A program made the translations under genes and the position numbers. 64,000 nucleotides of DNA from Ianthella basta (taxonomy: Eukaryota > Porifera > Demospongiae > Verongiida > Ianthellidae): positions 2,637,427-2,701,426 of the forward strand of contig OZ025882.1 in NCBI GenBank assembly GCA_964019415.1, given 5' to 3'. Under the pieces are notes generated by a model that had not been told where the DNA came from, did no database searches, and saw only the letters and a program-made list of their open reading frames with translations. Position 1 is the stretch's first letter. Each line of letters opens with the position of its first letter. Shown here one piece after another: positions 27,596-36,500 of this stretch.

Positions 27596-30500
27596 CTAGC
27601 ACCTCTCACTAGCACCTCTCACTAGCACACCACACAAGCACATCATACTAGCACCCTCACAAGCACCCCACAGCTGTGCTGAGGAGCAGGTGCCCCATGT
27701 CTGTTCACCTTCCTGTCTGCAGACAGAGCACTTCCTGCCTCCACCAGCACCACCTTGCTGTCCCAACCCCGGGGCACTGGGGGCACCACCGCCTCTTGCA
27801 ACTGCTGGTGGCCCATTCCAGGAGGAGTAACCACCTCCCATGTTGCCACGGTTACTGTACGTGCCCCTCCCCCTTCCAGGCCCACCCCTTCCATAAGTAC
27901 CACGAACGGCAGAGCTGGATCCCCTGCCCCTCCCATTGTTATAGGATGATGCTGTCCCTCTGCCCCGCCCCCTACTTGAGTAGGCAGTCCCTCTGCCCCT
28001 CCCACTGCTGCTCTGTTGACCTCCAATGCGAGCTCGCTTGGTAGCAATGTCAAGGAACCCTGGTTGCCTCTTGCCCAATGTGCTGGTAGTACCATTGAAG
28101 GGGTGGGGCCCAGGAGGTCCTCCCCCACCACCAGGACCATGGGGAGGCATGCCTGGACCAGGGCTGCAGGGAGGAAAGGAGAGCGGAGAGAGAAGAGAAG
28201 GTAAAGGGGAGGAGGAAGGGTAGAGTAGGGTAGGGAAGGACGGACAGAGTGGTGGAATAGGAGTGGGAAGTGGAGTGGTGAGAGAAGGGGAGGGAGGGGA
28301 AGGGGGATGGAGCAAAGATGTTTACCATGCGAGAACACTGAACTACCAAAGGGAGCTTGCAACTCAAACATACCATTAGAAAATACATTGCATGCAAGCA
28401 TTCTTGTCTGCATAACAATAAATGTTACCCACTACAGTATCCTATGTACATGTGCCTTACTTGTAACCACCCTGGGGTGGCGGGGGTCCTCCGGGCCCAA
28501 AATACTTCCTCAATGCACTCTCCAGACATGAAGACTGTGCAAGGCACAAGAAGAGTTCAGCAATACATGAAGACAAAGCCTCCTCACACACACAGCACAC
28601 ACACACTACAAACACACACCAACAGACAGTACAAGCAAGAACTGTAGGTACCTTAGCAACAGTATTGTGGAACACATCCTGGTATTTGGCGACAGCATTC
28701 TGCACAACAGCTGAGTCATACAAGGAGACCAAGTACTAACACACAAGTGATGTACGGCAGCACAGTGTGCTTCCCATGTATCTATGAAACACTGATGCAC
28801 AAACTCCAACTTCACAGCAACACAGCACACACTTACGTACCATCTTTGGTGGTGACACCTTCACAAATCCTAAGGAGGCAGCAAACAAAATTGCACAGTA
28901 CTACCATATAGTAGAAATTGGACAGACACAAGTGGACAGACACCAGTGGAGAGACACCAGTGGACAGCGGTAGGAACCTGCTTACCTTTTGAGGTCCTCC
29001 TCCAGTTGTGCTCTAAGGAATGGTTTTGACAGGTTGTACCCCATCAAGTCATACCCTACACCAGTGGGAAGGAGACAGAGGGGATTGGTTAGACCACTTC
29101 ATCCAAGCACTTAACTGAAGGAAGGCACCATATGTGTGTGTGCATCTTCCTCACATGCACACTATGTACAGTGTGTCTGCAAAGCTGTGGGTGGCTCACC
29201 GTCTACAAGTCCCATGCCCAGCTCCCCAGGAACAAAACACCCATCGTCGCGAACACCTACATAATTTCGTGACTTAATAGTTTCAATGTGCTCTGCATGA
29301 GTGGCATCAGTGCCTGCATGGCCAAGAGGTATATGGAGGTGGAAAGACATGACTCAGTTGCACACATATGGAGTCACACACACACACACACACACACTCT
29401 CTCTCTCTCTCTCTCTCTCTCTCTCTCTCTCTCTCTCTCTCTCTCACACACACACACACACACACACACACACACACACACACACACACACACACACTGT
29501 GACACACACACCCAAGAATGGTGACAGCTCCTGTATGTACTCTATGCTTGCTGAGGTTGCAGCCTGCTAATCATGCAGAAGGCTACAATGGTACATAAGC
29601 TTGCCCCTCCCAAGTATAAAGTTGAAGCACTATATCTTGCTTGTTTCACATCACATAAACTTCAAGGCTGTTTGAGTGGCTATCGTTCAAAGAAAGGTTG
29701 CATGGGGCAACATACTATGTATAACAGAGTACCAGCTCTGTGCTGCTGGAGTGCTCAGGGTCAGGATATCTTATTTCAACTGAGAAAACCTTTAGCCCAA
29801 AGTCTACTTCCCAAGGCACCCAGAACAAACATGAGACACACACAAAAGGGAATGAGGGGTGGGATTGGTACATTAGATAGTGGTAATTGCATTCAGTGAA
29901 AGGAATTGGTATAAGGTAGTTACACAATGACATGCAGTGAAATAAAGTAGTACATATACAGTAAGTAGCATGCAAGGTATTGGTATAAGGTAGAGAGTGT
30001 TAGAGAGGGGTTTCTCCTCCTTTGAGAAATAATCTGAAGTCCTCCGCTACTTGGCAGATCATGAAAATGTGCTTCTTTTCATGTGTGTAGCATTCTTAGA
30101 TGTTGCTGCATCAGCACACTAGCAGAGGGGGAGACTGCTTGAACAGCAATGGTATACGGGTGAGTGAATTGCCAGCCTGTACTTAGCACTTTTAGGCTAT
30201 GCACATTCAGAGCTAGAACTATTATTGAATACTATAATACTGGGAGTTCCTATCCTACTTCACATTTACCGTGTCAGCAGACTTGCAGGCTGAGGCTGAC
30301 TTGAAGCAGACGAAAACTCTTTAAAAGCAGTTACATACGTACTTCAGTTCATTGTAAAGCAAGACTTAGTCAAGATGAAGGCACTGCTGATACTTGCTGT
30401 GTTGATTGTAGGCTCAGAGGCAGTTTCATGTGGTGAGCCCTCCAGTTGTCTGTAAGTGTATGATAATTCTGATACACCTGTTTTGACTCAGTAACTGGAA

Positions 30501-33500: not shown

Positions 33501-36500
33501 AAGAGACTACCAAAAATCTTAAAAAGCAGTTACTGTACATACTTCAAGTCAAGTTGTAAAGTCAAGATGAAGGCACTGCTGATACTTGCTGTGTTGATTG
33601 TAGGCTCAGAGGCAGTTTCATGTGGTGAGCCCTCCAGTTGTCTGTAACTGTATGATGAAACTGATACACCTGTTTTGACTCAGTAACTGGAGCTCTACAT
33701 GCCACTACCAATTCCATACCTGTACCCACAGTTGAGAAAGCATGTACCCGGTACTGGGTGAAAATGAACTGTATGTATGCTTGAAGCCAAGACTTTCCTG
33801 TGTATTAAAGAACATTTAATTAAACTAGCCCCCCTTTCTCATGACCAAATTTAAACCGGTTTCGAAAGAGTTTTAAAAATGGTTTTAAGTCGATCGTGTT
33901 CACATGGGCATACAGCGGTTCCAAGGCAATGACATCATTGTCCTGTTTGTTTAGTCGATTAGGTGTGAGGTTAAGATGGCGGCGACTGAATGTTCGTTTG
34001 TTGTGTGGCGATTTGCTGCAGCAGGCGGAGAAGAAAACCTTCTAGTGGAAGGACAAGAAATATAGAAGCGATGCGAAGACCATTTCAAGCCTTTAAGACC
34101 AACAGGAGAAGAATTTACGCGAAATCATGGCCGCGATCATCGCTGATCGAAACTTACAAAGTACGAAGCAGCATTGGCTGCTTTGGGTCAGGAACAGAAG
34201 CCAGTACTCACCAGACCAGCGTTTTCATCTCACGTTCGCTGCAAATCTGTCCGTGATTCTTTCCTTTGTAGACATTTTATTGCACCTCTAAAACGGTTTA
34301 GCAAAACCGGTTTACCTTATTAAACCTGCTCGGAGCAGGTTTACGGAAACAGGTTCAGGGATTTTAAAACGGTTTAAGAACGGTGTAAGTGCCCATGTGA
34401 ACGCGCTAAACCGGTTTGACATGACCATGTGAAAGTGGGGGGGTAGGACTCTAGACAATATAATTTCAACTTCATGACTGACGTTAGATTCCAGACCATT
34501 GGTAATCAATTGTAGGCACTGGGCAATCCTAAGACCAAATATTGGTGGAGATCTGCAACACACCAACCCCAAAAATACAACCCCCAACTTTTCCACATCA
34601 AAACCCTGTCCTTAACGACTTAGGCTAAAAGATCTGTGCAGATTAGGACATAATCTTAATTGCTAGCATACAAGGACAGAGCTACAATGAAGCTGAACAA
34701 AAAGAGTATAGCAAGACGATGGAACAGACTATTGATGGTGAAACTATGTAAGTACTGTAAGACAGCCTTACCTCACACTATCCCCTCCCTGACCACTGTG
34801 CAGCTTATCGAAGATCCACAAGGTCACATGTGTCAAAGTCATGTTTACCAATGTGATCCACCACGCTACCAATGTGATCTCACTGTGCTACCGAGTGTAC
34901 TGTTTTAGAACACTGTGCTCATCCAATTACTTCAACAATTCCTTATTCTCTGTATGTAAATTCAGAGGTTGGGGGAAGAGCAGCTTGCATTGCATCATGC
35001 AAAGTGCAGAACTGTGCAACTGGCTATTGCGATTGGAAACAGGGACACGGGTCAGCCAGGCTAGCATACATAGAAGAATATGAATGCACCATCTCTCCTC
35101 TTTTACTATGAATGTCATATTTCCATCCAGGTACGTTTGTCGCTGCAGCCGCTGTGCTACTGGCCATGGGTTATAGCATATAGCAATAGCATTTTCTGTA
35201 CAAAGCAGAGGTTCTTTGAGATACAGTAGCAAGGCTGCCACATGGCAGCTTAATTTCATTAACACACTGTATCTGTTGTAATCCTATACGTACACACTAA
35301 GGAATGATATGACCCAATTCAGAAGAGCACTTGTATTGTTAAGAATCTAATATCAAAGGACACAAGTCTTAGTGCACCGGTTAGTTTGTCTTAAGCACAG
35401 GCACACACACAAAGATGCAAGGCTAGCAAATAGAGTTTGTGCTGATGTGACAGTGCTACAGTAAGTCTCTCCAGCAATCAGCAACACAGTGCATGCAATC
35501 CAGTTTTGAGTTAGCAAGGCTGTGTTGCATAGCATTGTGTACGCAATGTATTACGTGCATGTGTGAAACGGCCTGCATATGCATGCGCATATACATGTAC
35601 AGTGTATTGTCTGCTGTGGTGGCAGTGTGCAAATGATGCTGCATGCATGCTGGAGCATGGCTCACCAATGCCATGTTTCTCCATGAGACCAATCAGGTCA
35701 GCCTCTGTCAGGAGGGAGGGTGGAGTAGTGGCACCCTCAACCATCTGTGGGTGTGTGTGTGGGGGGGGGGGGGGAGACGGGATGAGGGAGGCAACAGTAG
35801 AGAACAACCTCTAGCACAACTCAATGCATAGTCTAGTAAGGTAGCCCTCTCCAGTATCACTCACAGTTCCTTACGTACCTCAATTGCAGTCACCTCAAAG
35901 GTCTCCCCTTGCCGATACATGGGAATGGTCTGAGTACGTAAAAGAACACAAAGAGATACGTAGCTACATCACGCACCTGTATACCACAGCAGTTACAGTA
36001 CATGTGCCTGGTGCAGTCACACACTGCACTGGATAGCACTAGTGCACACACAAACCCTGAATCTTATGCAGATGAAATGATTGATGATTAATGAGATTTG
36101 ATGAATAGCCCCTGCCAGCCATACCTTGGCATTCCACTGCTCATAAGGGTAGACATCAAGGTAGTTCCGAGCTGTTATGATCAGCCCTTGAGTGTAAAAC
36201 TGAAGGAAACACAGTACAAGCACCACAGAGCACACAGGTCAAAGTACGCACTCTCCATGCTTAAGTATACACAAACTAAGCATCTCACCTGTTCCCCGGC
36301 CACTTCAATGTCCACTGTGGTTTCATACCCTTCTGCATCCTACGTACAGCCACACCAACCACAAGAGGGATAATTTATAAGATGATGATTCACGCATACA
36401 TACACAGATGTTGATTGCAACATCACCATACAGTACAGTGTGTTTGTGCAGTAGCAAGTTAGTACTGCCCTGTACTCTGTATGCAGTCCTGACCCGTGAG

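Follow-up and report, generated by a model that had tools for sequence, protein, structure and literature searches.

Peptides of the ASABF type are cationic and were described as confined to nematodes within the animals that have three germ layers (PMC3210614), and a sponge ASABF, that of Suberites domuncula, was published in 2011 (Wiens et al., PMC3210614). According to that paper, the S. domuncula peptide is microbicidal, antifungal and hemolytic, it killed gastropods, and it is induced in tissue surrounding apoptotic areas. A 2016 review considered the sponge ASABF to be arguably equally similar to mollusc defensins and myticins (PMC5116183). Here we describe a pair of genes found in a stretch of 64,000 nucleotides from the sponge Ianthella basta (contig OZ025882.1, positions 2,637,427 to 2,701,426 of the forward strand; referred to as the window, to which all coordinates below belong). 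We consider it very probable, from their sequence, that both are intact and encode secreted host-defence peptides of the sponge which belong to the ASABF type (CS-alpha-beta, with eight cysteines). For the genes as predicted, the analysis establishes the exon-intron structure, the presence of eight cysteines in the order typical of the family, membership in the Pfam family PF16839, and an antisense location within an intron of the topoisomerase gene TOP3A.

The two genes lie on the plus strand, and splicing of three exons in each case results in a precursor of 60 residues for copy 1 (30375-31498) and of 62 residues for copy 2 (33567-35176). In copy 1, exon 1 (30375-30432) covers the putative signal peptide through the first cysteine, exon 2 (31295-31379) contains cysteines 2-5 and exon 3 (31459-31498) contains cysteines 6-8 and the stop codon. 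The corresponding exons of copy 2 are located at 33567-33624, identical to exon 1 of copy 1 in 58/58 positions, at 34966-35050, and at 35131-35176, the latter ending with the stop; in both copies, exon 2 takes part in the family match described below. When the models were rebuilt from the region 29500-36500, GT-AG borders were observed in 4/4 introns of the two copies, and the eight exon edges and three-exon splicing proposed in an earlier note on this DNA proved exact. That note had also proposed eight cysteines and a signal-peptide-like start, and both are present in the two spliced precursors: a hydrophobic N-terminus, judged by eye to be signal-peptide-like on account of its hydrophobicity and of small residues at -3 and -1, is followed by the eight cysteines (residues 19, 27, 31, 36, 41, 51, 53 and 56 in copy 1). 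Intron 1 is in phase 1 and lies directly past the codon of the first cysteine in both copies, and intron 2, in phase 2, is located within the loop between cysteines 5 and 6 (C5-C6 loop), so that it interrupts the mature peptide in both copies. Taking as assumed mature parts those beginning one residue ahead of the first cysteine, isoelectric points (pI) of 8.95 and 8.50 and charges at pH 7 of +4.5 and +2.6 were obtained for copies 1 and 2, respectively.

In a search against Pfam-A, the precursors matched PF16839 ('Nematode antimicrobial peptide') with E values of 7.7e-8 (32.7 bits) for copy 1 and 2.1e-10 (40.9 bits) for copy 2, copy 2 outscoring copy 1. Since 2/2 proteins exceed the curated Pfam cut-off of this family (27 bits), a chance match is ruled out, and PF16839 was the sole Pfam-A family above cut-off for either of them. 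The earlier note had suggested comparing the translations with profiles of this kind, and the result was significant for both. Scores for Toxin_3 (PF00537, scorpion toxin-like) were 21.0 bits for copy 1 and 18.5 bits for copy 2, under the cut-off of 21.5, and those for the mussel myticin precursor family (PF10690) were 16.7 and 16.4 bits, under the cut-off of 28.5. A search of the PDB, with copy 2 as the only query, retrieved Blo t 19 (5e-8), ASABF (1.1e-5) and ABF-2 (3.7e-5), followed by scorpion toxins from E 0.012 onwards, and identity to Blo t 19 in the core reached 21/37 positions. The match crosses the junction between exon 2 and exon 3. In addition, by our own reading of the positions, the cysteine spacing agrees with the nematode CS-alpha-beta consensus C-X(3,18)-C-X(3)-C-X(7,9)-[GS]-X-C-X(4-13)-CXC as given in PMC3210614, and the basic pI of both peptides is in line with the cationic nature of ASABFs. 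The ASABF-type identity put forward in the earlier note is thus borne out by the PF16839 scores and by the PDB matches to ASABF and ABF-2, and the label is justified for the predicted products of both genes.

The pair can be compared with the closest described systems. The S. domuncula ASABF (accession CCC55928 according to PMC5116183), compared here by its published description, likewise comes from a sponge, has eight cysteines in the same order and a basic pI, and its signal peptide (19 residues) is comparable in length to the putative one of the present genes, but its C5-C6 loop has 4 residues vs 9 in the present genes and its precursor 83 residues vs 60-62 (PMC3210614). On the structure of that gene, the main text of PMC3210614 uses neither the word 'intron' nor the word 'exon'. 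The same source mentions a peptide from another sponge, L. baicalensis, which is called ASABF-related but differs in having 4 cysteines only (PMC3210614). As for gene structure, mollusc and arthropod defensin genes are described as having a phase-I intron beside the mature-peptide exon (PMC6435467), a feature shared with the present genes. They differ in that the mature defensin is encoded there by a single exon (PMC6435467), whereas here it is split by the phase-2 intron in the C5-C6 loop and the phase-1 intron lies directly past the first cysteine. A phase-2 intron is also described for the defensin-like genes of one fungal species, at the fourth cysteine and therefore at a position other than that observed here (PMC5234102). 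The splitting of the mature peptide by a phase-2 intron is a modest novelty. The highest sequence similarity found was to nematode ASABF and ABF-2 and to Blo t 19, which share the cysteine order with the sponge peptides but belong to another phylum. Nematode ASABF precursors have longer C-terminal parts.

The host gene was identified from its exons on the minus strand. Fourteen exon peptides, chosen by eye from the list of open reading frames for their resemblance to TOP3A and spanning approximately 28457-42782 (minus strand), matched human TOP3A collinearly in minus-strand order with E 7e-117, against 1.4e-51 for topoisomerase 3-beta; five stretches of this match were significant on their own and the last one was not (E 11). 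The intron that holds both peptide genes (29314-35665, minus strand; 6,352 nt, phase 1) shows a GTGAGC donor and a CAG acceptor on that strand. It is flanked by an upstream exon at 35666-35744 and by a downstream exon at 29200-29313, where 29200 is an arbitrary cut and not the exon end. Once joined, the flanking exons aligned gap-free to residues 508-571 of human TOP3A (4cgy) with E 1.8e-26, and more weakly to topoisomerase 3-beta (E 1.6e-12). These data identify the host gene, as far as its exon sequences go, as TOP3A, topoisomerase 3-alpha being a better match than 3-beta in both comparisons. As the flanking exons join contiguously, both peptide genes must lie in one intron, on the opposite strand, and the antisense nesting described in the earlier note is confirmed by this joint and by the collinear exon peptides. 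The same note had called such nesting unusual, which holds in a relative sense only: animal genomes commonly contain genes that lie within an intron of another gene and are read from the opposite strand. No report of an ASABF gene within a TOP3A intron was found in the literature searched on ASABF, sponge defensins and nested genes. A Gly/Arg-rich frame with a CSVCRQEG stretch at its end, located at 27596-28321 (minus strand), is in line with TOP3A and is perhaps its C-terminal part.

The peptide genes are contained in two duplication units, unit 1 at 30262-31997 and unit 2 at 31996-35689, the second enlarged by later insertions and with its right end inside the TOP3A exon. The units share 89-98% identity across ungapped blocks. 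The terminal part of unit 1 (31974-31997, minus strand) is identical in 24/24 positions to the 24 nt with which the TOP3A exon ends (35666-35689), the splice donor of that exon coming next in the copy (at 31973), and the promoter sequence of unit 1 reappears where unit 2 opens (31996-31998). This arrangement demonstrates, to the extent that sequence comparison can, that the pair arose by tandem duplication in place, with the right end in the TOP3A exon. Furthermore, nesting preceded duplication, because the copied unit contains the end of the adjacent TOP3A exon. A dispersed repeat (32135-32904), detected by repeat search, forms part of a block of ~1.4 kb inserted in unit 2 and flanked by two partial copies of the promoter and gene start (~32056-32130 and 33517-33582); the remainder of this block gave no other match among the 40 of 1300 candidates scored. 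A second dispersed element of ~0.6 kb, resembling a miniature inverted-repeat transposable element, occupies 33829-34441 within intron 1 of copy 2, from which two stretches that occur in copy 1, one of 77 nt and one of 53 nt, are also missing. No indels separate the copies in exons 1 and 2, and exon 3 shows 2 gap openings near the stop. The earlier note had attributed the drift of intron sequence to single-base indels; intron 1 does show 10 gap openings, but such indels cannot alone explain the drift, since the largest gaps correspond to the mobile element and to the 77- and 53-nt stretches. The sponge ASABF family itself is not new, and both genes are real new members of this known family in an uncommon setting. 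New in addition to the split mature peptide are the nesting in TOP3A and a duplication that copied 24 nt of a TOP3A exon, together with its donor, into the intron. By including part of the host exon, this duplication illustrates clearly, on a small scale, how a gene nested in a host increases in number there.

According to the proposed mechanism, each copy would be transcribed from its own TATA-like promoter, the candidate boxes being located by motif match at 30320-30326 (55 nt before the ATG) for copy 1 and at 33519-33525 (48 nt before the ATG) for copy 2, both on the plus strand. Both introns would be spliced out of each transcript and the signal peptide cleaved, probably after residue 16. 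By homology, the basic mature peptide would adopt an ASABF-like fold of helix and sheet with four disulfides, and by analogy with what has been reported for the S. domuncula ASABF the secreted peptide may damage microbial membranes. An NF-kappaB-like site, GGGAGTTCCT at 30242, was attributed to background, since 80 one-mismatch matches occur in the 64 kb and 6 in the intron.

An alternative target for the peptides has to be considered, namely animal channels or cells more than microbes, with a role in deterring grazers or competitors. The Toxin_3 score of copy 1 just below cut-off and the weak scorpion toxin matches point in this direction, as do the lysis of erythrocytes and the harm to gastropods described for the peptide of S. 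domuncula (PMC3210614). However, PF16839 alone exceeds its cut-off and the closest solved relatives are nematode defence peptides, so that a predominantly animal-directed role is rather unlikely, although the antimicrobial and the animal-directed roles are compatible with each other.

The proposal of two intact genes also has to be weighed against the possibility that one or both copies are relics which have lost expression or selection. Several observations weigh against intact function. The donor of intron 2 is weak (GTCAGC); removal of this intron is supported in spite of it because the match crosses the exon 2-exon 3 junction. Neither AATAAA nor ATTAAA was found within 1,600 nt past either stop. 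The upstream sequence of copy 2 was exchanged by insertion near its TATA-like box, leaving this copy without its distal upstream sequence, and the two copies may therefore differ in regulation. Finally, the copies differ at 10/183 coding positions vs 74/1288 (5.7%) non-coding ones (Fisher p = 1.0), so that coding sites have diverged as fast as non-coding sites. In addition to these points, a truncated copy of the promoter and start at ~32056-32130 is a sign of decay within the array.

The nature of the coding differences was then considered through several tests, post hoc and on one short gene pair. The ten differences fall in 9 codons, all 9/9 of which are altered in the encoded residue, and 0 hit a cysteine or the stop. 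Simulated silent changes averaged 2.8/10, with a probability of 0.031 for no silent change, and the absence of change over the 58 nt of exon 1 had a simulated probability of 0.016. Transitions and transversions were in a 2:8 ratio at coding positions vs 46:28 at non-coding positions (p = 0.016). As many as 6/10 coding differences lie in the C5-C6 loop (clustering p = 0.041), and 61/222 overlapping non-coding windows cluster as strongly as the coding changes. When ten random substitutions were simulated, indels being left uncounted, 19% of the resulting copies kept an open frame together with the eight cysteines, and for this reason the retained frame and cysteines prove little. The earlier note had presented the frame and cysteines as kept: both are indeed intact in the two copies, but constraint does not follow from this, given the equal coding and non-coding divergence and the neutral retention just mentioned, and the evidence for selection keeping the frame is weak. 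The pattern would fit diversification of the C5-C6 loop; positive selection is not claimed. Against the relic hypothesis, the frames, splice sites and cysteines are all intact in both copies, copy 2 beats copy 1 in family score, and exon 1 is unchanged. Altogether, we regard the loss of function of one or both copies as unlikely, and favour two intact genes for host-defence peptides.

The regulatory and evolutionary claims of the earlier note, which had suggested that nesting could couple the expression of the immune effector and of the DNA-repair gene, exceed the evidence. In its widest form, the idea would make the nested pair a functional unit, with diversifying selection acting on the C5-C6 loop and with antisense transcription or the copied exon end tying immune induction to TOP3A output, which we hold to be quite unlikely. 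Very unlikely in turn is that the nesting is regulatory in the sense that TOP3A output is altered by antisense transcription of the peptide genes or by the copied exon end and the donor beside it. The opposite strands inside one intron would favour such an effect, as would the exact 24-nt exon copy plus donor held by the intron and the lack of a canonical poly(A) signal between copy 2 and the TOP3A exon. On the other hand, the exon copy is devoid of the remainder of the exon and of its acceptor, and passive nesting accounts for the layout; residence of the peptide genes inside TOP3A is most likely passive.

Acquisition of the gene from a nematode by horizontal transfer is highly improbable, for although the peptide matches nematode proteins well, and the S. 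domuncula ASABF shares 27% identity with the nematode relative closest to it and has that shorter C5-C6 loop of 4 residues vs 9 here (PMC3210614), short cysteine-rich peptides converge, and the gene has introns and is flanked by TOP3A exons within a contig of 7.4 Mb. Contamination is excluded because the locus, with its introns, lies between TOP3A exons on this contig and because the duplication includes TOP3A exon sequence.

The ASABF complement of the sponge was searched for in the whole assembly (209,087,449 bases, 96 contigs). Of 11 candidates scored with PF16839, 7 were matches, two of them being the present genes; the other five loci (L005-L009) were rejected, as they scored below cut-off, 3/5 cross stops and their three-frame translations show no family cysteine pattern. 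A DNA search with 34900-35689 against the assembly retrieved only the two copies. These results indicate two loci in the genome, within the sensitivity that searching exon by exon allows. Relatives were absent from phage records, bacterial and archaeal contigs and viral contigs, a result of little meaning as these collections do not include sponges. With a well-supported, intron-bearing sponge gene that is fixed in place by exons of a conserved host, genomic position can be used to ask whether the family dates back to the origin of animals, which is useful because trees of short cysteine-rich sequences are poorly resolved. If the TOP3A intron were likewise occupied in other sponges, ancestry within sponges would be settled.

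Other features were observed in the window. A gene convergent with TOP3A lies at 21000-26650 (plus strand), and its exon frame 23551-23958 matches Paf67 (PF10255, E 1.2e-27), which we take to be the family of eIF3 subunit L. A reverse transcriptase frame of 286 amino acids at 17813-18670 (minus strand; RVT_1, E 6.6e-18) is probably a retroelement remnant, and a frame of 262 amino acids at 54305-55090 (plus strand), whose end matches GIY-YIG (E 5e-5), is perhaps Penelope-like. An open frame of 724 amino acids at 2583-4754 (minus strand), with no Pfam match, spans a minisatellite (period 21 bp, 49.8 copies). Similar frames recur in 49455-52038, at 49455-49772 and 50596-50943 on the plus strand and at 50490-50789 and 51607-52038 on the minus strand; the first of them gave no Pfam match. 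Two arrays of period 77 are located ~0.3 kb apart at 46478-46669 and 47000-47163, and their consensus units look reverse-complementary.

Outside the window, contigs C1, C2, C4, C5, C7, C10, C12, C15, C16 and C18-C23 of the assembly measure 6.0-16.6 Mb, the other eight up to C23 are also large, as judged from hits at multi-megabase positions, and ten later contigs whose size was recorded do not exceed 90 kb. In the assembly, 30 cathepsin-family loci (L010-L039) were observed, 11 rows of which displayed a motif hit, in all cases QCGSCWAF, the silicatein motif not being seen among them, so that silicatein lent no support as a taxon marker. The profile Col_cuticle_N gave 0 matches in the assembly and likewise none in the control genomes, and no mitochondrial gene was recognised by eye in contig C24. 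Three of these loci (L011-L013, contig C6) are adjacent cathepsin-like frames with no intron in the match and with an altered active-site stretch that is neither cathepsin-type nor silicatein-type. Finally, the mitochondrial contig C96 (20,000 of its 21,233 nt read) has a combination of genes typical of sponges, which are marked among animals by a mitochondrial atp9: it contains nad, cox, cob and atp frames, including atp9, recognised by eye under genetic code 4, together with full-length bacterial-type rRNAs (Rfam scores of 574.8 and 1120.4 bits) and 20 tRNAs.

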